Positions 7,181 through 16,639 of a stretch of 64,000 bases of DNA are shown one piece after another. The stretch covers positions 3,103,001 through 3,167,000 of the forward strand of contig NZ_CP031946.1 in NCBI RefSeq assembly GCF_003443535.1, in the 5' to 3' direction. Below the pieces are notes generated by a model. It was not told the origin of the DNA, searched no databases, and was given only the letters and a program-made list of their open reading frames with translations. Position 1 is the stretch's first letter. Every line of letters begins with the position of its first letter. The stretch comes from Ruegeria sp. AD91A. Lineage in GTDB: Bacteria; Pseudomonadota; Alphaproteobacteria; Rhodobacterales; Rhodobacteraceae. The position numbers and the translations under genes were made by a program.

Positions 7181-7735
7181 TCAGTAGAAATCAATCTCGC
7201 TGACGTCTACGCGGACCTCATGATCGCGCCCGTAGGCAACAACCCCAACTGTGGTGATTTCGTCAGCGACGGGAATAGCGCGCAACATGGCACCTGAAGC
7301 CTTGAAGCCTGACAGGGGTAAACTGATTTTGGTCCATTCTTCAGAAGTTGGAAACTCGGCCTGATAGTATTGCCATGGAAGCACTGTGCCACGTGTTCTG
7401 AGGTGAACGAAGTATTGCTCGCCGTTCCCTCGGACCAACAGTCTGACGCCTGATACACCCTCATCTGGCCGATCAGGCAACTTGCGTCGGAATTGGATGA
7501 AACCGCCGTTGTTTTCTGTACTGACGGTTCCGGTCAACCGCGCGAATGCAACATTACCTTCCGAACTAAACTGCACCTGCCCTGAAGAAACTCCGCCCAT
7601 GACAGTGTCGGCAACGTAGTCCCAACGCGTCTCCGGAGACTTGGAGAAGTCTTCTGCAAGTTTTTCATCAGCCTGTGCCATTGTAGATCCGATGATATAA
7701 AGACTTGAAACAAGCCCAACAAATTTGGCACGCAT
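7181..7735 (-). CDS. CIA30-family (NADH:ubiquinone oxidoreductase complex I intermediate-associated protein 30) protein, exported
   Basis: The 184-residue product from the ATG at 7735 (AAGGA seven bases upstream) has a signal peptide ending MAQA. It then shows the CIA30 beta-sandwich pattern: W-x-Y-V-A-D-T-V-M-G-G-V-S-S-G, NNGGFIQFRRKL, GVRLLVRGNGEQYFVHLR and PLSGFKASG. In mitochondria CIA30 helps complex I assembly, but bacterial secreted homologues are uncharacterised and probably bind a carbohydrate or lipid-like ligand. It is the last gene of a three-gene operon, 11 bases after tspO, apparently driven by the sigmaE-type promoter at 8745-8774. A longer in-frame ORF to 8071 overlaps tspO and was rejected. 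Confidence 0.85.
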   Translation of the reverse strand: MRAKFVGLVSSLYIIGSTMAQADEKLAEDFSKSPETRWDYVADTVMGGVSSGQVQFSSEGNVAFARLTGTVSTENNGGFIQFRRKLPDRPDEGVSGVRLLVRGNGEQYFVHLRTRGTVLPWQYYQAEFPTSEEWTKISLPLSGFKASGAMLRAIPVADEITTVGVVAYGRDHEVRVDVSEIDFY

Positions 7736-7746
7736 ATTGTTCCTTC

Positions 7747-8199
7747 TCAGTTCAGTATTGCAATGGAAAGGTTCAGTGCCGCGGCAAATGCGACCCATGC
7801 AAAGTAAGGCAAGAAGGCCAGTGCGGAGACCCGATCCGAGTTCCTGACCCGAGCGATGAACACGACGATGACAATCAGCAACGCGACAATGACCACAAGG
7901 GCAAACCACGGCAGTTGCAGTACAAAAAAGGTTGGGGACCACAAAAAATTCAGAGCCATCTGTGCCCACCACAGCTTCATGGCAGCCGAGCTTCGGTCTG
8001 TTTCGAACTGACGCCAACCCGCCATGGCGATCAACACATAAAGCACCGTCCAGACCGGGCCAAATATCCAATTTGGTGGATTGAAAGCAGGTTTAGAAAG
8101 CTGCGCATACCAATCGCCAGGTGCGGTCAGTGTCCCGATCAGGATGCCGCCTCCCAACATGAGCGCGAGAAATGCTATGCGGATCAACAAATTCGACAT
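7747..8199 (-). CDS. tspO: TspO/MBR tryptophan-rich sensory protein
   Basis: The 150-residue protein has five predicted membrane helices and the family motifs K-P-A-F-N-P-P-N-W-I-F-G-P-V-W-T near residues 36-50, A-L-N-F-L-W-S-P near residues 82-89 and the closing P-Y-F-A-W-V-A-F-A-A-A-L-N. TspO proteins bind porphyrins and, in Rhodobacter, dampen photopigment gene expression and respond to oxygen; several degrade or move tetrapyrroles, which are photosensitisers. It lies 13 bases after the upstream secreted-protein gene and 11 bases before the CIA30 gene, so the three form one transcript. The sigmaE-like promoter ahead of the operon would link it to singlet-oxygen stress. Confidence 0.95.
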   Translation of the reverse strand: MSNLLIRIAFLALMLGGGILIGTLTAPGDWYAQLSKPAFNPPNWIFGPVWTVLYVLIAMAGWRQFETDRSSAAMKLWWAQMALNFLWSPTFFVLQLPWFALVVIVALLIVIVVFIARVRNSDRVSALAFLPYFAWVAFAAALNLSIAILN

Positions 8200-8212
8200 T
8201 GCGGGACTGCTT

Positions 8213-8716
8213 TCAGCAATCCTTGGTCGTCACGTTGACAAGCGCTTCGGAAGAGAAGGTTGCAGTACTGGTCTTATCCGCATCGGAATAAGACACCGTG
8301 GCGCCTTCTATCTCCGACCCTGTTACGGTGATTTCGCGTTGCCCGATGGTGTCATCCACATCGATGGTAAAGGCGAGTTTATCCCCGACTGCGAGGGAGG
8401 CGATCTGAAGTTCAATTGAATCTTGCCCGTCCACGACCGCTGGAATTTGCCGCAGAGCATCCGCACCCTCAACGAATTCGAGAGGTTGAAAGACCTCTAC
8501 GCCTGCACCTTTTTCGGTAACGTCGAAAATCAGACGTCCGGCAGATTGCGACAAGTCGATTTTGAGGGTCGAAGCTTCAACTTCGCACGTTCCGACATTT
8601 GTCAGAACAAAACGGTCCTTGGGTGCGCCTTCTATAAAGCGAATTTGTACACCAGCATGAAGCGAAGTAGCTGCAAATAGTCCAAGGGTCGCTGCAAGAA
8701 TACTCTTCGGGAGCAT
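8213..8716 (-). CDS. Secreted protein resembling an aggregation-factor-core-type family
   Basis: The 167-residue product has a signal peptide (MLPKSILAATLGLFAATSLHA) and an all-beta mature domain: VQIRFIEGAPKDRFVLTNVG, KIDLSQSAGRLIFDVTEKGAGVEVFQP and FTIDVDDTIGQREITVTG. I recognise these segments as those of a small exported protein found in many marine Rhodobacterales under the name aggregation factor core; the name is inherited from annotation and no function is established. Two cysteines (near residue 48 and at the C terminus) could form a disulfide. It is the promoter-proximal gene of the tspO operon, with the sigmaE-like element 29-58 bases upstream of its ATG. Confidence 0.7.
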   Translation of the reverse strand: MLPKSILAATLGLFAATSLHAGVQIRFIEGAPKDRFVLTNVGTCEVEASTLKIDLSQSAGRLIFDVTEKGAGVEVFQPLEFVEGADALRQIPAVVDGQDSIELQIASLAVGDKLAFTIDVDDTIGQREITVTGSEIEGATVSYSDADKTSTATFSSEALVNVTTKDC

Positions 8717-8744
8717 ATTTATCTTCTTTCTAAAAGGTTCTTGA

Positions 8745-8774
8745 TAGATACGCTTCGGCGGGTTTCTTGGATCA
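8745..8774 (-). promoter_or_regulatory. Candidate RpoE/ChrR (sigmaE) promoter of the tspO operon
   Basis: On the minus strand TGATCC (8774-8769), exactly 18 bases, then TATCTA (8750-8745). This matches the sigmaE consensus described in Rhodobacter sphaeroides. The -10 ends 28 bases before the ATG at 8716, the same distance as at two other sites in this window. Confidence 0.65.
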
Positions 8775-8852
8775 GACTTATGACTTTTGACTATCGTGGC
8801 TCAGCCGGCAGGAGTCTTCAAAGTTCCATGCACAGTAGTCACAACGGTTAAG

Positions 8853-9236
8853 TCAAAACATGCCATTTTCATTCGCGCTGTTTGCTGGAATTTCCTGAAG
8901 AACATCCCAGTGCTCGACAACCTTACCATCAGCATCCAGGCGAAAAATATCGATCCCTGCGTACTCGAGACCATCGGGCCAGATTTGGTGGCAATGCAGA
9001 ATAACGTGGTCGTCTTCGGCAAACGCGCGTTTGATGTCCACTCGCTTTCCGGGGTGTTCGGCAGCCATGCGCTCGAAATACTCGACAAAGGCTTGCTTGC
9101 CGTCGCCAACATGCGGGTTGTGCTGCGTATAGGTTTCACCAACAAAGGTCGCTATGGCCTCGGCAGGTCGACACTCGTTGAACATCATTTCGTAGAAAGC
9201 GATGACGTTTTTCTTGTTTGTTTCGAGGTCCGGCAT
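8853..9236 (-). CDS. SnoaL-like / NTF2-fold protein
   Basis: The 127-residue protein has the COG4922 SnoaL-like pattern: [11 protein letters not shown] near residue 10, [14 protein letters not shown] near residue 34, then [12 protein letters not shown] and [17 protein letters not shown]. Such proteins are small cone-shaped barrels, often with isomerase, cyclase or aldol-type activity; the substrate is unknown. The ATG at 9236 was preferred over an in-frame TTG at 9248 because GGAG of TTTGGAGATCAGC sits just ahead of it. It stands alone, with 136 bases to the tspO operon and no shared promoter visible. Confidence 0.82.
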
Positions 9237-9374
9237 GCTGATCTCCAAATCGGTGTTTTTCTACCCAAAACCGTTGGCTCGTAAAGCACAGAAAACAAAT
9301 AATAAGAATCTCGATCAATAGTTGGGAAAAGTAACGAGCTTTTTTGCGTTCCAACTATTTCGAGGATTTGCCAG

Positions 9375-9521
9375 TTAATCGGTATCCTCGAAGTCGATAT
9401 GAATATGATTTCCATCAGGATCGGCCACATGGATTTGGATCATGCGGGGCACTGGGACTTCGGTTTTGCGATACTGCATCTGACGTGATGCCAGTTTTTC
9501 TTCAAATGGTCTCAATCTCAG
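9375..9521 (-). pseudogene. Glyoxalase/VOC-family C-terminal remnant
   Basis: The minus strand reads P-F-E-E-K-L-A-S-R near 9490, then VPVPRMIQIHVADPDGNHIH and IDFEDTD before a TAA at 9375. The segment I-H-V-A-D-P-D-G-N-H-I is the last beta strand and metal-ligand region of vicinal-oxygen-chelate (glyoxalase/bleomycin-resistance) proteins. An in-frame stop at 9522-9524 and no start codon show that the N-terminal two thirds is gone. It sits just beyond the stop of the photolyase operon. Confidence 0.6.
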
Positions 9522-9546: not shown

Positions 9547-11040
9547 TCATGTCATCCGTCGCAAAAAGGCTTCAGCCGTCGTGACATGCTTATTTTTGAC
9601 CTCTGGCGACATGCGCCCAGCCGTACGGCACATCATCGCCCAACGGGGATTGCCAGCAAGTCTATCGGTGTGTTTCAGGATAAAGCGCCAATAAAGCCCG
9701 TCCCATATGTCGGACCAAGGCCCTTTGCCCCAATGGCTCATTTTGCGAACATAGTTTGAACCGGAAAAGTACGGTTTGGTGGTGATTAACCCGCCATCGG
9801 CATGCTGGCTCATCGCGTAGGCATTTGGTACCATCACCCAATCATAGCTGTCGACGAACATTTCCATGAACCACCGATAGACATGGTCCGGATCAAGCTC
9901 ACACAGAAACATGAATCCGCCCAGTACCATAAGGCGTTCAATGTGATGGCAATACCCGGTTTTGAGCACCCTTTTGATCGTGTCGTCCAGCGGATCAACA
10001 CCAGTGGTCCCATCGTAGAAAGAGCGGGGTATGGGGCGGCGATGGCCCCAATGATTTTTTGTGCGCATCGGCACACCAAGGTCCTCATAACTCGCGCGCA
10101 TAAACTCGCGCCAGCCAATGATCTGGCGGATGAAACCTTCTACCGAATTCAGGGGAATGCCCTTGCGATCCGCATGCGCCAAGGTAGCGTCCAAAACTTG
10201 TTTCGGCGTTAACAATCCAATGTTCAAAGCAGGCGTGAGAACGCCATGCCATAGCCAGTTTTCGCCCTCAACAATGGCATCTTCATAGTCGCCAAAACGT
10301 TCGAACCGCCGCTCCAGAAACTGCGCCAGCCAGTCGGACGCAGCTTTGTGTGACGTTGGATAATACAACGTTTCCAGGCTGCCTAATGCATCTGGAAAGT
10401 CAGCAATAACGCTCGCTTTTGCGGCTTCATCAACTGCGTCATGGTCAGGCCAGTCGATCCACGGAAGGTTGCCCAACAACGCCTTGGGTACTTTTTTGCG
10501 GTTTTCTTCGTCAAAGCTCCATTGTCCTCCGGTCGGTTGCCCGCTGTCCATCAACACATTCAAGCGGCGGCGTTGGCTTTTGTAGAACTCAGCCATGAGC
10601 CAACGTTTTCGACCGGCAAACCAATCCAGATTGTCGGCCCGAGTGTTCAAAAAGCCAGGCGATGGCTGGATATCGAGTGTGATATCGGTTTTGCCAGCCG
10701 CCGCCCGTAAACGCCTTTCTGCAATGAAGTCTACTGGATCAGCCATGATTACTTGGCTGACACCGCGATCACACAGACTCTGAAACAGTCGCAGACATGC
10801 GCCCGGCTGCCGCTCAAAGGGCCATATCGCGGCATCGATGCCCTTGGCAACCAAGCCATCGCGATAGCGCGCCATAGAGGCGCGGTGCAGCCAAAGCTTT
10901 TGCTTGTGCATCGTTGCGGGGTAATAGGCATCGCCAAAGAACAGAGGGTCTTCGAAAAGCACAACAGTATCTGGCTGGGCGGCCAGACCCGGGTGTTGGG
11001 TAAACAATTGGTTGGGGAGCAGAAGGACGGCAGAGGACAC
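9547..11040 (-). CDS. Photolyase-related protein of the bacterial (6-4) photolyase/CryB (FeS-BCP) family lacking the Fe-S cysteines
   Basis: The 497-residue protein aligns by eye with PhrB/CryB-type photolyases: N-terminal antenna domain (VLLLPNQLF...VVLFEDPLFF), then the FAD domain with IIGWREFMRASYEDLG, TGYCHHIERLMVLGGFMFL, DPDHVYRWFMEMFVDSYDWVMVPN and ADGGLITTKPYFSGSNYVRKMS. Known members coordinate a [4Fe-4S] cluster with one Cys upstream of the GY-x-HHIERLM helix and three more in a YCxxC...ACPFN loop before LYW. Here the first position is Pro (VDPLDDTI) and the loop is replaced by a short H-W-G-K-G-P-W-S-D-I-W-D-G segment, so no cluster is expected. It is the last gene of the operon, three bases after its neighbour. 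It probably repairs or senses UV damage with FAD. Confidence 0.88.
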   Translation of the reverse strand: MSSAVLLLPNQLFTQHPGLAAQPDTVVLFEDPLFFGDAYYPATMHKQKLWLHRASMARYRDGLVAKGIDAAIWPFERQPGACLRLFQSLCDRGVSQVIMADPVDFIAERRLRAAAGKTDITLDIQPSPGFLNTRADNLDWFAGRKRWLMAEFYKSQRRRLNVLMDSGQPTGGQWSFDEENRKKVPKALLGNLPWIDWPDHDAVDEAAKASVIADFPDALGSLETLYYPTSHKAASDWLAQFLERRFERFGDYEDAIVEGENWLWHGVLTPALNIGLLTPKQVLDATLAHADRKGIPLNSVEGFIRQIIGWREFMRASYEDLGVPMRTKNHWGHRRPIPRSFYDGTTGVDPLDDTIKRVLKTGYCHHIERLMVLGGFMFLCELDPDHVYRWFMEMFVDSYDWVMVPNAYAMSQHADGGLITTKPYFSGSNYVRKMSHWGKGPWSDIWDGLYWRFILKHTDRLAGNPRWAMMCRTAGRMSPEVKNKHVTTAEAFLRRMT

Positions 11041-11043
11041 GGG

Positions 11044-12288
11044 CTATGGCCTTTTTTGGGTGGCTAGGTTCATTTCGCCTAAGAACGATGGGTTCTTCTT
11101 TCGAAGGCCGAAGAATCCGGCCCTTGCATGAGGCCATGTCATAGCGTCGTACGGCCGCATTACCCTGTTCAATGATAGGCCTGCGTCTCTCAATAAAGGT
11201 TCCGCACGATCCATCCTTGACCGGGAGGGACCGACAGGCGCATGGGCTGTTGCAATGGTCGTGACACCCGCATTCCGTGCTGCATCGATCAGCGGACCAC
11301 TCCAGTCGTCAGCTGGTTTCGCGATTTTTCCGTGGTGTTCTAGAGCGCTGCTCATCGCGCCGGTGGCAAAATCCTGTACGACGTGCCCAATCGGGTTTGG
11401 GGACCGACCATGCGTCGCCAAAAGTCCAATCGCGGCAGCAGGCGATGTCGGCATTGTGCAGTCACCTGACAGATCATCCTCCGTCAACAGTAACAGGTAA
11501 GGGCTTTCTGTGGGCATGTGGGGGCTTGAAAGGGGAATGAGCGGGTGATCTACCGGCTCGGTCAGCGGTTCTGCAGATTTGGCCAGGCCTCTCGGTTGAA
11601 ACCGTCCTTCGGTATATCTGTCAATATTGTCAGCGCGCGCGAGGTAGTTTTTGCCTTTTGTGTGCAATCCGCCAACCCACCGCCAGCTCAGCGTGTTTGA
11701 CGCGGGATCGCCGTCCAACAAGTGTCGTAAAAAGAAATCCGCGCCAAGCTGCCAAGGTATGCGGAGTGTAAAAATCCAAATTGAAGCAAACCACATGCGC
11801 GCATGATTATGAAGGTAGCCAGTCGCCACCAGTTCCCGCGCCCAATGATCGAAACAGTCGATGCCGGTATTGCCGTTTACTGCATCGTTGAAGCGCATCT
11901 CCAGGCCCTGATCATTTGCTAGTCGCTTACAAAAACTCAACAAGTCCCGCTGATACAGTGCCCAAACGCTGGGCCTTTGTTCCAGCCAGCCCTTGAAGTA
12001 AGTGCGCCAAAACACTTCTTGCACGAACTTTTCGGCCGCGTTGGAATGATGTGACGCTAAGACCCTTGTCAGTACCGCTTTCTCCGTTATCAACCGGTGG
12101 CGAAGCCAAGGTGACAAACCCGATACATTGCTGCGTCGCCCGGTCCCAAAATCGTAGTTCCGCGTACTTGTATAATGCCGACCAGTGCGGCCCATGAACT
12201 GCTTCAGCCTTTCCAGACCATTGGTGCGTGTAGGTTTGAAACTGATCGACTCTTTCGCTTCAGGAAGTTCTGGAAATTTCTCGGTCAT
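11044..12288 (-). CDS. FAD-binding photolyase-like protein with rearranged domain order
   Basis: The 414-residue protein opens directly with a photolyase FAD-binding domain: [19 protein letters not shown] near residue 45, [37 protein letters not shown] and [16 protein letters not shown]. The usual N-terminal antenna domain is missing. Instead about 145 C-terminal residues look like an alpha/beta unit ([12 protein letters not shown]..., then [20 protein letters not shown]...[14 protein letters not shown]), as if the antenna were moved to the end. The start at 12288 shares ATGA with the stop of the DUF2256 gene, showing translational coupling and ruling out the in-frame ATG at 12303. Role inferred: photorepair partner or photoreceptor. 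Confidence 0.82.
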
Positions 12289-12422
12289 GCGGCAGACCTG
12301 CATTTTTTCGAGCAGTATTTCACTTCATCCCAAACGTTTTCCCATTTCTTGCGCCAGGTGAAAGGGCGCCGACAGACCGGGCAGTTTTTTTGGGGTAAAT
12401 CGGCTTTTTTCCGCATTTTCAT
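12285..12422 (-). CDS. DUF2256 small zinc-ribbon protein
   Basis: A 45-residue ORF too short for most gene callers. It reads [20 protein letters not shown] followed by [20 protein letters not shown] and C-R-S-A-A. The CxxC and CxxxC pairs and the central W-R-K-K-W are the DUF2256 signature. The family is repeatedly found beside photolyase/cryptochrome genes; the job is unknown, perhaps zinc-dependent binding to DNA or to the photolyase. Its ATG overlaps the stop of the upstream photolyase gene (TGATG) and its own stop overlaps the next start (ATGA), so it is co-translated in the middle of the operon. Confidence 0.9.
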
Positions 12423-13933
12423 CACTGGTCCCCCAAAGGCAGGTCGAGTTGCTTTTGATCTTGAGGCGCCCGCGCGACTTCGCGAGCATTCCGCGTGGTC
12501 TTTCGGCTAGCGTGTTTTGTCGCGATGGCTCGTGCTTCGGTGCGAAACTCCGCACTTCGGCGGACGCCCCAAACCCGCTCGCGCGCGGCCTTGGCTGCCG
12601 CGAGATGGTCAAAAACACGCTCTGGATAAAGCTTTCCAAGAAATTGTTTCGCGTTTTGAGCCCTCCAAGGTTCGTGGATATGCTGATCTGCGACTTGGGA
12701 CAATTCCGGCACCCATGTCCGAATGAACACGCCTTTTGGATCCTGATCATAGCCCTGCTTAACCGGATTATAGATGCGCACAGTATTGATGCCGGTGGTG
12801 CCTGATTGCATCTGAACCTGGTTCCAGTGAATGCCCGGCTCATAGTCGGTAAACATGCGCGCCAGATGCGCACCCGGAGCCCGCCAATCCAGCCAGAGAT
12901 GATAACTCGCCGTGGCCATCACCATTGCGCGCATCCGAAAGTTGAGCCACCCCGTTGCTTGCAAGGACCGCATGCATGCGTCCAGAAAAGGATATCCCGT
13001 TTCGCCTTTGGACCATGCGGCAAGTAGTTCGGCATCTGGGGCATTCGGTCGAAGACCGTTGTAAAGTCGATGCAGATTTTCAAACTCAATCCGGGGTTCA
13101 TCCTCAAGTTTCTGAATAAAATGGCAATGCCAATGCAATCGGCCCGAGAACGAGCGAATTGATTTGCGCCAGTCCTTTGCGTGGGGTGGCAATCTGCGCC
13201 TCTGCTTTTCAGTAGCTTGCGCAACCTCGCGCATCGAAAGCGCACCCCAAGCCAGGTAGGGTGATAGCCGCGAACACGCAACGGCTCCCTCCAAGGGGCT
13301 GGACATTTCGCGTTGGTATCTTTTGCCACGGTGGGTCAGAAAGCTGTTCAGCCGTTCCAAACCCGCATTTCGTCCACCAGATTGACGACCAACGCACAGA
13401 TCATCCCGCAAGCCGAGGTCGCGCGCCGTGGGAATATACCCTGGTTCTATGTCGATGTGCTCTAACGCAACTGGTGGAGAAACGGGCCGAGCCATAAACC
13501 TATCCCAACGCTCCGCCCAGCCGTTGCGAGACTTGAGCCTGCGAAAAACACCGTGGTTTTGCACTTCGTGCCACAGCACACCGTAATCCCTGCACCATGC
13601 AGCGACCTGACGGTCCCGCTGATACGTCCAACTATTTCCTGTTTCCTCGTGTGACCAAAGCGCGTCAATTAGACCACGATCTTTCAACTCGGAAAGGACC
13701 GACATAATTTGCCCGGTGCGCACAACAAGTGGCTGGCCCAGTTTCCCAAGGTCTTTTCTTAACCCAGCGATTGTCTCTGCAACAAAGTCCCACTGCCGTG
13801 TTGACGCGTCGAGTTGGTGCCAAAGTTCCGGTTCAACCACATAGAGCGGCAAAACTGGCCCTACCTCAGACGCTTGCGCTATTGCCGGATGATCATACAC
13901 CCGTAAATCCCGTTTGAACCAAACGACCTGCAC
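12422..13933 (-). CDS. phr: Deoxyribodipyrimidine photolyase / cryptochrome family protein
   Basis: The 503-residue protein starts with an antenna domain ([16 protein letters not shown]) and has the FAD-domain hallmarks [10 protein letters not shown] with [10 protein letters not shown] near residues 195-225, [36 protein letters not shown] and [14 protein letters not shown]. It should split cyclobutane pyrimidine dimers with blue light, though a cryptochrome-like signalling role is possible. The GTG at 13933 was chosen because GGAGG sits five bases upstream and translation begins at the antenna strand; the longer ORF to 14164 adds basic junk. It is the first gene of the four-gene photolyase operon with a sigmaE-like promoter upstream. 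Confidence 0.93.
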
Positions 13934-14692
13934 GATACCTCCGTTTTTCAAGTGTAGTACGTATGGCCACAAAAAATGGATCTTTGTTCCAGTCTCCTCC
14001 GCATTTCGCTGGCGACGTGGCTTTTGCAAAGGCGTCATTTGCCTTCGACACTTGAAGGTCGGAAGTTGGCGCGAACTCACTGATGAGCGCCTGGCCGGGA
14101 GTATGAGACCTAGGCGAAGGTGACATTGTTTAGTGACGGCGCCGGGCCCTAAAACACCAATCAAACAAATGGGTTAGCACAACTTAGTTTTGTTCGAATT
14201 TCTGATTTCCAAGTAAACGATAACGAGACAACCTCGACGATCTGTACGTCACCAAGCTCTGTCGCGGGGATGGCGGCGAACTCCAGAACATCCACCCCGA
14301 AAGAACTGAAATGGGAGAAAGATATATTCAAGCGGAACCATCTTGTTCGCGCGTCCAAAGCGGTAAGCTAGGCTCATGCAGTTTTTAGCTTCTTCGATCA
14401 TGCGCTACGGAAATCACTGAACTTGTTTGATTGTCCTAGTCGATCTCCAGTGACGGCAATTTTTCAGTACTCTTCGGCAAACAGCGAGATAACTACAAGC
14501 CTCGGGCCTCATTTAACATATTTGCCTGTGCACCTGCAATTCGGGCGAAGCTACGTTTAAGTTTGACTGGCAGCATCCCAAGTTGCGGCTTCATAACGCA
14601 TCTGTATGCAGCTGCTGCACCCTCGTTTCTTCGGTTTTTGCGCTAGCTCTTGCAAACGTACAGGCGAAACCCAAGAGGCGAGGTCAAACAAA
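13934..14692. other. Divergent intergenic region upstream of the photolyase operon
   Basis: About 760 bases between the photolyase operon (left) and the DCC gene (right). The left edge holds the candidate sigmaE promoter. A 65-codon minus ORF at 14161-14358 has no recognisable similarity, and no RNA gene or repeat was seen. Confidence 0.4.
13954..13983 (-). promoter_or_regulatory. Candidate RpoE/ChrR (sigmaE) promoter of the photolyase operon
   Basis: Minus strand AGATCC (13983-13978), 18 bases, TACTAC (13959-13954), ending 20 bases before the GTG start. The first -35 base deviates from TGATCC. phrA is an established member of the R. sphaeroides sigmaE regulon, which supports the assignment. 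Confidence 0.5.
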
Positions 14693-15139
14693 GTGTTCAA
14701 AACAGACAACGCTGAGGTTGCGCTCACATCTGATGACGCCGATCAATCCTTTACTACGGTGTACTACGACGGATCTTGCCCGCTTTGCTCCGTTGAGATC
14801 GGGCATTATGCTTCTTGCAAGGGCGCTGAGCGCCTGCGGTTTGTCGACGTCTCAAAACCCAATGCTCGTATTGGTGTAAATCTAACGCGGCAAGAAGCAA
14901 TGGATCGATTCACTGTGCGTCGACCAGATGGAGAACTTGCATCCGGTGCGCGCGGGTTCACGGAACTCTGGGGTAATTTACCCAAATGGCGTTGGCTAGC
15001 ACGTGTGGCAGGCTTACCGGGGGTAACGCCTCTTCTAGAGCTTGCATACCGGGTTTTCCTGCCCCTAAGGCCGACGCTTTCGAGGATCGCTTCTTGGTTC
15101 GGAGCGAAGCCGGTTGACAGGACGGGTTCGTCGACATGA
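14693..15139 (+). CDS. DCC-family thiol-disulfide oxidoreductase (DUF393)
   Basis: The motif Y-Y-D-G-S-C-P-L-C-S near the N terminus is the DxxCxxC signature of the DCC family, thioredoxin-like small proteins with an unknown electron partner. Further family features follow: L-R-F-V-D-V-S, M-D-R-F-T-V-R-R-P-D-G-E-L-A-S-G-A-R-G-F and a C-terminal hydrophobic stretch ending in a basic tail. The GTG at 14693, with GAGG ten bases upstream, gives 148 residues; an in-frame ATG at 14606 would add 29 residues with no ribosome-binding site. Genes of this family often neighbour photolyase genes in Rhodobacterales, as here. Start confidence is lower than family confidence. Confidence 0.85.
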   Translation: MFKTDNAEVALTSDDADQSFTTVYYDGSCPLCSVEIGHYASCKGAERLRFVDVSKPNARIGVNLTRQEAMDRFTVRRPDGELASGARGFTELWGNLPKWRWLARVAGLPGVTPLLELAYRVFLPLRPTLSRIASWFGAKPVDRTGSST

Positions 15140-15313
15140 TCAACCTAGACGATGGTCATTTCTAAAGGCTTGATTGGCTCGTTAAAGGAGTTCTCGAATC
15201 CGCACTTGGCAACACTCGCGCCGTACTCGCGCTTCGTCTTGGGTTGGTCACGCGTATCAGTGACGCAGGTTTGTTATTTTTCGGCTTGTTGGTTTTGAGT
15301 TAATTGTGATCGT

Positions 15314-16633
15314 TCAGATGACATACTTTTCAAGCAGCGTCTTCAAAGGCAGCGAAGCACTCAATCGAGTGGCCAACATGAACATCCCCCCAATCTTTCG
15401 CTGAAGGTAAAGAATGTCCATTGGCATTTGGGGTGGGGCATACCCGGCCGCAGCCAGGGCCATACCTTCTTTGTTCAGGTGGTTGGAGAGCTTTCGGTCA
15501 GTAAAATCAAATTCATTCGCGGATAGGATTGCGGCGAAAACACTGCGGATCATTCCCAGGATCTGGTCGTCGAACGGGCCATCACCTTCAACAAGCTTCA
15601 ATTGGATGGCGGCGTTACGAAGTGCTGCGTCATTTTCAAGTAAGCCTGCACGCAGCAGGTGCACATACCCGTCTATTGCAGATGATTGCAGTGCTCGGGT
15701 TGCGCCAAAATCCAAAAGACTAATCTTCCCATTTGACGCGTCGTATCGGTAGTTGGCAAAGTTCGGATCGCTTTGCATGATACCGAACTCGAAAATCTCG
15801 CGCAGCGTGAGCTTGACCAAGGCCTCGGAAACTCGATTGCGTTCCTCACTGGGTGCATCTCTCACCGTTTCGATGGAGCGACCTTCCAGAAAGGACATCG
15901 TTAGAACTTCTGGCGTGCTCCAATCTGGATAGAACTCTGGGATTTCGAACGCTTCATCGCCCTGCAATAGGTCAGCAAAACAGCGCATGTATTGCCCCTC
16001 GCGTTCATAGTCCGTTTCTTCATGTAATTGACTGCGCGCCTCTTGGATATACGGAGCCATATCAAAGCTTTTGGGAAGCAGACCTGACATACGAACCAGA
16101 GTGGCAACATTGGCCACATCGCTGTCGATACTGCGCGCGATACCGGGATATTGCACTTTGATCGCCACATCGCGCCCGTCTCTAATAGTTGCACGATGTA
16201 CTTGCCCAATGCTCGCTGCCGCTATGGGCCTTACATCGAAGGTTTGGAAGGAGTTTCGCCAATCTGAACCCCAGGCTTGGTTCAGGACGTCACGCAATTG
16301 TTTCGGCGGCATGAAATGCGCCTGATCTCGCAGACGCGCCATGATTTCTGCCAGTTCAGCCGGTAAGACCTCACCTGCATCCATCGAAATCAACTGACCC
16401 ACCTTCATCGCGGCCCCTCGCATGCGAGCAAGCCGATCCGCGATCCGTGTCGCGTTACCCGGTGTCATCAACAAACCACGCATATCGGGTCGCGCACCGC
16501 GACCGATCTCTCGCAGGGCGCGTACTGCCACGTTCCCCGCAATGCCTGCCGTCATGCTGCTCAAACCGGCAACTCGGACCAAACGGCTTGTAGGAACAGC
16601 CAAAGGGGTAGGCGAGGATTTAGGGTCGGGCAT
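15314..16633 (-). CDS. ABC1/AarF/UbiB-family atypical kinase
   Basis: The 439-residue protein has the UbiB-family motifs in order: K-x-G-Q in A-A-M-K-V-G-Q-L-I-S-M near residue 76, the A-A-A-S-I-G-Q-V-H-R-A loop near 135, the catalytic lysine in V-A-I-K-V-Q-Y-P-G, E-T-D-Y-E-R-E, and Q-S-D-P-N-F-A-N-Y with L-L-D-F-G-A-T-R for Mg-ATP. Members are ATPases linked to ubiquinone and lipid metabolism. The ATG at 16633 follows GGTGAGAATTG and lies six bases after the DUF427 stop, so the two form an operon. It is not next to ubiE/ubiJ, which suggests a second, specialised copy rather than the ubiquinone-biosynthetic UbiB. Confidence 0.9.
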   Translation of the reverse strand: MPDPKSSPTPLAVPTSRLVRVAGLSSMTAGIAGNVAVRALREIGRGARPDMRGLLMTPGNATRIADRLARMRGAAMKVGQLISMDAGEVLPAELAEIMARLRDQAHFMPPKQLRDVLNQAWGSDWRNSFQTFDVRPIAAASIGQVHRATIRDGRDVAIKVQYPGIARSIDSDVANVATLVRMSGLLPKSFDMAPYIQEARSQLHEETDYEREGQYMRCFADLLQGDEAFEIPEFYPDWSTPEVLTMSFLEGRSIETVRDAPSEERNRVSEALVKLTLREIFEFGIMQSDPNFANYRYDASNGKISLLDFGATRALQSSAIDGYVHLLRAGLLENDAALRNAAIQLKLVEGDGPFDDQILGMIRSVFAAILSANEFDFTDRKLSNHLNKEGMALAAAGYAPPQMPMDILYLQRKIGGMFMLATRLSASLPLKTLLEKYVI

Positions 16634-16639
16634 CAATTC

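Follow-up and report, generated by a model that had tools for sequence, protein, structure and literature searches.

Why a bacterial operon should join three photolyase-family proteins of separate lineages to a tiny four-cysteine protein is the question raised by a locus of Ruegeria sp. AD91A, whose genome comprises 4.41 Mb in two contigs. The window analyzed here, a stretch of 64,000 nucleotides at positions 3103001-3167000 of contig NZ_CP031946.1, carries the genes A, B, C, and D consecutively on the minus strand from 13933 to 9547. B was identified as a member of the DUF2256 family. There is good support for linking this family to the photolyases outside class I, both across bacterial families and into other phyla, and the four genes very probably constitute one functional photorepair unit to which DUF2256 belongs. 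The basis for this unit lies in the overlapping genes, their joint presence and absence within the genus, and the association with photolyases outside class I.

An overlapping gene set of three photolyase lineages

The genes and their junctions in the window were as follows.

12422..13933, minus strand: gene A, photolyase/cryptochrome-fold protein, 503 amino acids, GTG start
12420..12424, minus strand: A/B junction, TGATG
12285..12422, minus strand: gene B, DUF2256 zinc finger with four cysteines, 45 amino acids
12285..12288, minus strand: B/C junction, ATGA
11044..12288, minus strand: gene C, short photolyase of the NewPHL/Phr7 kind, 414 amino acids
11041..11043, minus strand: C/D gap of 3 bases
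9547..11040, minus strand: gene D, PF04244 photolyase and relative of the prokaryotic (6-4) photolyases, 497 amino acids, GTG start

The three junctions, read from the sequence, are those given by the original prediction. The GTG start of A is immediately preceded by GGAGG. Gene B ends with a stop at 12287-12285 and may start at the ATG at 12422 or at a GTG at 12425, which would yield 46 amino acids. Gene C, the TAG stop of which ends at 11044, may start at the ATG at 12288 or at an ATG at 12303 (419 amino acids), and gene D runs from the GTG at 11040 to a stop ending at 9547. The B/C overlap was kept in all 14 of the genus loci examined where B was followed by C on the same strand, with the B stop and a possible start overlapping as ATGA in 13 loci and as GTGA in one.

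Gene A matched the Pfam domains PF00875 (E-value 4.4e-25) and PF03441 (2.5e-61), and gene B matched PF10013 (DUF2256) with an E-value of 1.2e-21 and a score of 77 bits against a curated cut-off of 25, so the 45-residue protein is the DUF2256 member that it had been taken for. The originally proposed separation of the photolyases into three lineages was likewise borne out by a phylogeny of the flavin adenine dinucleotide (FAD) domain, built from 146 sequences after thinning of duplicates and addition of the window sequences, which placed A, C, and D in separate clades with support values of 1.0, 0.79, and 0.88, respectively. A profile search of the Ruegeria sp. AD91A genome identified a single DUF2256 gene and four PF03441 matches, namely A, C, D, and, at a distance of about 1.8 Mb, a photolyase of class I.

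A comparable arrangement is the UV-B-inducible operon of Synechococcus sp. PCC 7335, for which co-transcription of two photolyase genes was seen by reverse transcription quantitative PCR (PMC9649867). Both loci have adjacent photolyases of different lineages with overlapping frames. In contrast, the cyanobacterial operon consists of two genes, one encoding a PhrSph98-like bifunctional enzyme, and DUF2256 is unmentioned in the accessible parts of that report, whereas the locus described here combines three other lineages with DUF2256.

Association of DUF2256 with photolyases across genomes

The co-occurrence of the families was analyzed among 398 Pseudomonadota genomes, including that of the window (G000). 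DUF2256 was found in 105 genomes, PF03441 in 232, and PF04244 in 108, where up to 18 first-look candidates per genome were scored for DUF2256, so that some of its absences can be misses. DUF2256 and PF04244 occurred together in 90 genomes, DUF2256 alone in 15, PF04244 alone in 18, and neither in 275 (phi 0.79); the corresponding counts for DUF2256 and PF03441 were 104, 1, 128, and 165 (phi 0.49). Every one of the 105 DUF2256 genomes encoded a photolyase-family gene, the lone PF03441-negative genome having PF04244, and among the 293 genomes without DUF2256 only 18 contained PF04244. Among the 233 genomes that carry at least one of these genes, stratification by family gave an odds ratio of 42.9 between DUF2256 and PF04244, and none of 20,000 permutations reached the observed 90 genomes. 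The 18 PF04244-only genomes were rechecked with nearly all candidates scored (150 of 175 and of 180 in G302 and G397, respectively), and no DUF2256 was found in them above the cut-off, the best score being 17.8 bits. A (6-4) photolyase as the sole partner of DUF2256 was ruled out because 15 of the 105 DUF2256 genomes lack PF04244. In 14 named control genomes, DUF2256 was above the cut-off in Caulobacter vibrioides and Synechococcus elongatus, PF04244 was present in these two and in Haloferax volcanii, and PF03441 was present in seven.

Within the genus (54 genomes), DUF2256 was found in 23 genomes, comprising 22 strong matches and a 27-residue match of 25.1 bits (G047). Gene A occurred in 22 genomes, identical to those with strong DUF2256 matches. 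Gene C occurred in 21, including 20 of these 22 and a fragment in G011, and gene D in 25, including all 22 and three further genomes (G011, G021, and G034). In G011, which has D and a C fragment but lacks A and B, the operon seems to have decayed. These distributions support a gain or loss of the four-gene unit largely as a whole in the genus.

The neighborhoods of DUF2256 were surveyed in three sets of loci: 104 phylum loci of 14 kb, one from each DUF2256 genome other than G000 and with four secondary weak matches excluded; 17 genus loci out of the 22 genomes with strong matches; and 80 named loci, the best among at least 586, chosen by likeness to the DUF2256 of the window, with phyla assigned from record names and general knowledge. 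A photolyase was counted when an open frame of at least 200 amino acids matched any of 14 queries with a score of at least 60 bits, a threshold by which class II photolyases could be missed. A photolyase-family gene was present in 54 phylum loci, lying within 200 bp of DUF2256 in 46 (43 on the same strand), in all 17 genus loci, and in 51 named loci, within 200 bp in 44 (42 on the same strand). The nearest photolyase within 200 bp was of the D type in 33 phylum and 20 named loci, of the A type in eight and 16, and a Cry-DASH (DASH) protein in five of each, with the C type nearest in a further three named loci. The five DASH proteins checked all passed NCBIfam. In these 107 phylum, genus, and named loci, the nearest photolyase was never of class I. 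Adjacency by chance would be expected at a rate estimated at well under 1%.

The adjacency was also observed beyond Pseudomonadota, in Bacteroidota, Verrucomicrobiota, Chloroflexota, and Acidobacteriota. Of the 32 named loci outside Pseudomonadota, 15 contained a photolyase, 14 of them within 200 bp and all of these on the same strand. PF04244, searched in the genomes of 49 of the 80 named loci, was present in 36, namely in 15 of the 17 from Pseudomonadota and 21 of the 32 from other phyla. The order A-B-C-D was found in 11 of the 17 genus loci, two of which appeared as A-C-B-D because of the overlapping frames. Other orders included A-B-DASH-D (L075), DASH-A-B-D (L117, L142, and L148), and A-B-D-DASH (L252 and L282). 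Such varied orders point to one set with an exchangeable slot for a single-strand cyclobutane dimer (CPD) photolyase, where DASH and NewPHL proteins appear to alternate beside DUF2256. A survey of gene order in related genomes had been named by the original prediction as a check, with conservation limited to close relatives counting against it. The outcome was in its favor: adjacency in five phyla and co-occurrence with D-type genes within families favor a functional link, although the exact order was seen only in the genus.

Several observations weigh against a strict partnership, the main one being that about half of the loci are free of photolyases. No photolyase was found near DUF2256 in 50 of 104 phylum loci or in 29 of 80 named loci, including all four from cyanobacteria. 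The same held for three of the five plasmid loci with annotation and for 35 of the 36 viral contigs, and outside the genus only sub-sets and other orders of the four genes were seen. In addition, a parallel service of distinct lesions fits as well as the originally proposed complex or sequential pathway. The reading of the four genes as a functional unit is upheld by one translationally overlapping set of three lineages and DUF2256, gained and lost largely together in the genus, and it is weakened by the photolyase-free loci. No alternative conserved partner emerged from the latter: among ten neighbors from eight such loci (four cyanobacterial and four of Bacteroidota), only asparaginase was common to two loci, and the others were cobyric-acid-synthase-like, beta-lactamase-like, SpoU methylase, subtilase, amine-oxidase-like, glycosyl-hydrolase-like, amidohydrolase, and DUF4301 proteins.

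These photolyase-free loci would also be expected if DUF2256 had no direct part in photorepair and rode in photo-oxidative and ultraviolet (UV) stress islands of sunlit bacteria through shared regulation and habitat. The genes surrounding the operon (7181-9248 and 14606-16636 of the window) encode CIA30, TspO/MBR, SnoaL-like, DCC1-like thiol-disulfide oxidoreductase, and ABC1 kinase proteins, and many DUF2256 members come from water or surfaces according to their record names. However, a stress island does not account for DUF2256 abutting or overlapping photolyases of four classes and never class I, for its overlaps of a few bases with both A and C in the genus, or for its tracking of PF04244 within families, and we consider this explanation rather unlikely.

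Further features of the flanks were noted. In Ruegeria sp. TM1040, an AarF/ABC1 kinase gene likewise follows the C homologue. About 60 bp upstream of A (13934-13995) are similar in seven relatives, with the sequence farther upstream diverging in two of these, and no match to simple LexA- or RpoE-like patterns was found upstream of A in the window. A short minus-strand frame directly 3' of D (9375-9515) had no Pfam match and presumably resembles the end of a glyoxalase/VOC protein.

The three photolyase-fold proteins

Gene D matched PF04244 (the DPRP domain) with 155 bits against a cut-off of 22.1 (E-value 2.6e-45), and PF03441 with 24.3 bits, below the curated cut-off of 27. It aligned over nearly its full length with PhrB (4dja) and CryB (3zxs), with E-values of about 1e-76 to 1e-73, and its relatives in the Protein Data Bank also include 7ykn. 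The motif CHHIERL of D aligned with AHHIQRL, retaining the histidine pair that we take to be that of the (6-4) site. In contrast to the (6-4) photolyases of the FeS-BCP/CryPro group, D lacks all four cysteines of the 4Fe-4S cluster, a feature absent from the original prediction; the corresponding columns hold P350, G438, a gap, and D444. All four cysteines were present in 71 of 87 aligned rows, a count where the window sequence appears twice and one row (L249) ends at a contig edge. The antenna-site residues Gly9-Asp10 are replaced by Pro-Asn in D, and cluster-free prokaryotic (6-4) photolyases have been described (PMC9178010). In the FAD-domain phylogeny, D clustered with three cluster-free proteins of Bacteroidota (L218, L266, and L292), a grouping that suggests a transfer of D between phyla. 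By what is known of its family, D would reverse (6-4) photoproducts.

The loss of the cluster bears on the possibility that DUF2256 is a metal or iron-sulfur (Fe-S) maturation factor for PF04244 photolyases. Such a role would suit its four cysteines and its strongest co-occurrence with PF04244, the usual members of which carry a 4Fe-4S cluster. However, all four cluster cysteines are missing from D of the window, from 10 relatives in the genus, and from the three Bacteroidota proteins, although DUF2256 lies beside or near each of them, and PF04244 is absent from 15 of the genomes with DUF2256. Since DUF2256 is retained next to D proteins without the cluster, maturation was ruled out as the principal explanation, and we hold it to be very improbable.

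Gene C matched only PF03441 (E-value 3.6e-22, residues 93-221 of 419) and not PF00875. Its FAD domain is N-terminal, an arrangement that the original prediction had not described, and is followed by about 170 conserved residues at the C-terminus with no Pfam profile match, a candidate counterpart of the C-terminal Z-domain of the NewPHL/Phr7 kind. C resembles the NewPHL/Phr7 proteins in having the FAD domain first and in the absence of PF00875. The Phr7/NewPHL proteins of Dinoroseobacter and Methylobacterium are described as CPD photolyases for single-stranded DNA (PMC9426592). Gene C would similarly reverse CPDs in single-stranded DNA, as judged from its family, and this proposed role would be that of Cry-DASH in genomes with DASH beside DUF2256 instead.

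Gene A belongs to a clade with an altered flavin pocket, to which L336, L339, and L340 also belong. His271 and His369 were invariant in 51 aligned rows (50 distinct) from Pseudomonadota, Bacteroidota, Verrucomicrobiota, and Acidobacteriota, and His369 occupied the flavin-facing Asn position in an alignment with 6kii. In the W-R-D/E motif, the acidic residue was replaced by Cys in most members of the clade, with Asp or Asn in some. A falls outside the class I CPD photolyases, having His369 at the flavin where the A. nidulans enzyme has N386, and its score to the Cry-DASH profile TIGR02765 was 158 bits against a cut-off of 317. With a threshold of E-value <= 1e-50, A-type genes were found in at least 34 of the 398 phylum genomes, a lower bound because up to three candidates were scored per genome; comparison of the lists placed 31 of the 34 among the DUF2256 genomes and 31 among those with PF04244. 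In G043, A is interrupted by a single stop codon.

On Deinococcus plasmids, A runs on into a uracil-DNA glycosylase (UDG). All seven Deinococcus matches listed were annotated as such fusions, and in each of the three records examined a single open frame held both the motifs of A and what we take to be the UDG motif. Both parts of the D. gobiensis fusion were confirmed by Pfam, and the protein is not among the photolyases named in the accessible text of the genome paper (PMC3314630). Going by its family, A would act on a UV lesion in DNA through its unusual His-based flavin pocket, and the fusion to UDG in Deinococcus makes it probable that deaminated cytosine plays a part in this lesion. Alternatively, A may sense light as a cryptochrome and control the set instead of repairing DNA, as the changes of the flavin Asn to His and of the acidic residue to Cys in most members are like those that mark a loss of CPD repair. 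However, the fusion to UDG indicates work on DNA and no regulator is attached to A, which make a sensor unlikely.

Fold and possible role of DUF2256

Gene B carries CxxC and CxxxC (CSxxC) zinc ligands. The four cysteines (C12, C15, C35, and C39) were invariant in 34 aligned DUF2256 members, and 112 of the 121 trimmed domains showed the CxxC/CSxxC pattern. The fold of B was predicted with a mean local confidence (pLDDT) of 84.7. YacG and FCS fingers headed the fold-comparison lists with matches not significant alone, which places the predicted fold weakly nearest to them. DUF2256 has been assigned to the TRASH clan together with DUF329 (PMC4047054), and it shares a CxxC...CSxxC finger of comparable length with the YacG, FCS, and TRASH-clan fingers. 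In contrast to YacG, its loop is longer and rich in Trp and Lys/Arg, and it has no C-terminal tail.

DUF2256 is listed among the commonest small protein families of bacteria (PMC11796252). That it has no known function, as the original prediction stated, agrees with the portions of the literature that mention it, and no link of DUF2256, PF10013, or COG4338 to photolyases or cryptochromes was found in the full-text sources searched, which included few subscription papers. DUF2256 genes also occur on viral contigs (L301-L335), mostly as one sequence type, and these are possibly host genes beside prophages; none was found in phage records.

The likeness to YacG, described as a stress-linked gyrase inhibitor (PMC10886550), raises the possibility that DUF2256 regulates gyrase or transcription, adjusting supercoiling or the expression of the repair operon after UV. 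The nearest folds are consistent with this, as are alignments of Pfam YacG along the finger in two DUF2256 members (E-values 0.085 and 0.0093, both below the cut-off). However, YacG depends on its C-terminal tail for its action on gyrase, and DUF2256 has no such tail (45 against 65 amino acids); moreover, a regulator of this kind would leave the specific adjacency to photolyases outside class I unexplained. We regard such a regulator as improbable.

The explanation that we favor, tentatively as a whole, is a photorepair set made together with DUF2256 as a zinc-finger accessory factor. The four genes would be expressed as one set. The contribution of DUF2256, presumably as a small basic zinc finger of the TRASH/FCS type, is the part of which we are least sure. 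It would work as YacG does on gyrase, its Trp-bearing face docking on a larger protein, and would help the photolyases to reach or engage damaged DNA. From the genomic context and fold, a direct action on the photolyases or on their DNA substrate is possible, and is put forward with reserve. An extended proposal, that DUF2256 is a general accessory subunit of photolyases outside class I (A, (6-4), DASH, and NewPHL) and that A is a His-pocket photolyase class repairing UV lesions with deaminated cytosine and passing the product to UDG, is more speculative and seems unlikely in full.

Given the altered flavin pocket and the natural fusion to UDG, the A clade may represent a kind of photorepair enzyme that is so far uncharacterised. 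These roles are set apart by the retention of DUF2256 where D has lost its Fe-S cluster, and by the exchange of DASH and NewPHL beside DUF2256. For DUF2256, a family without an assigned function, the strong tie to photorepair and the preference among photolyase classes provide a first testable role.

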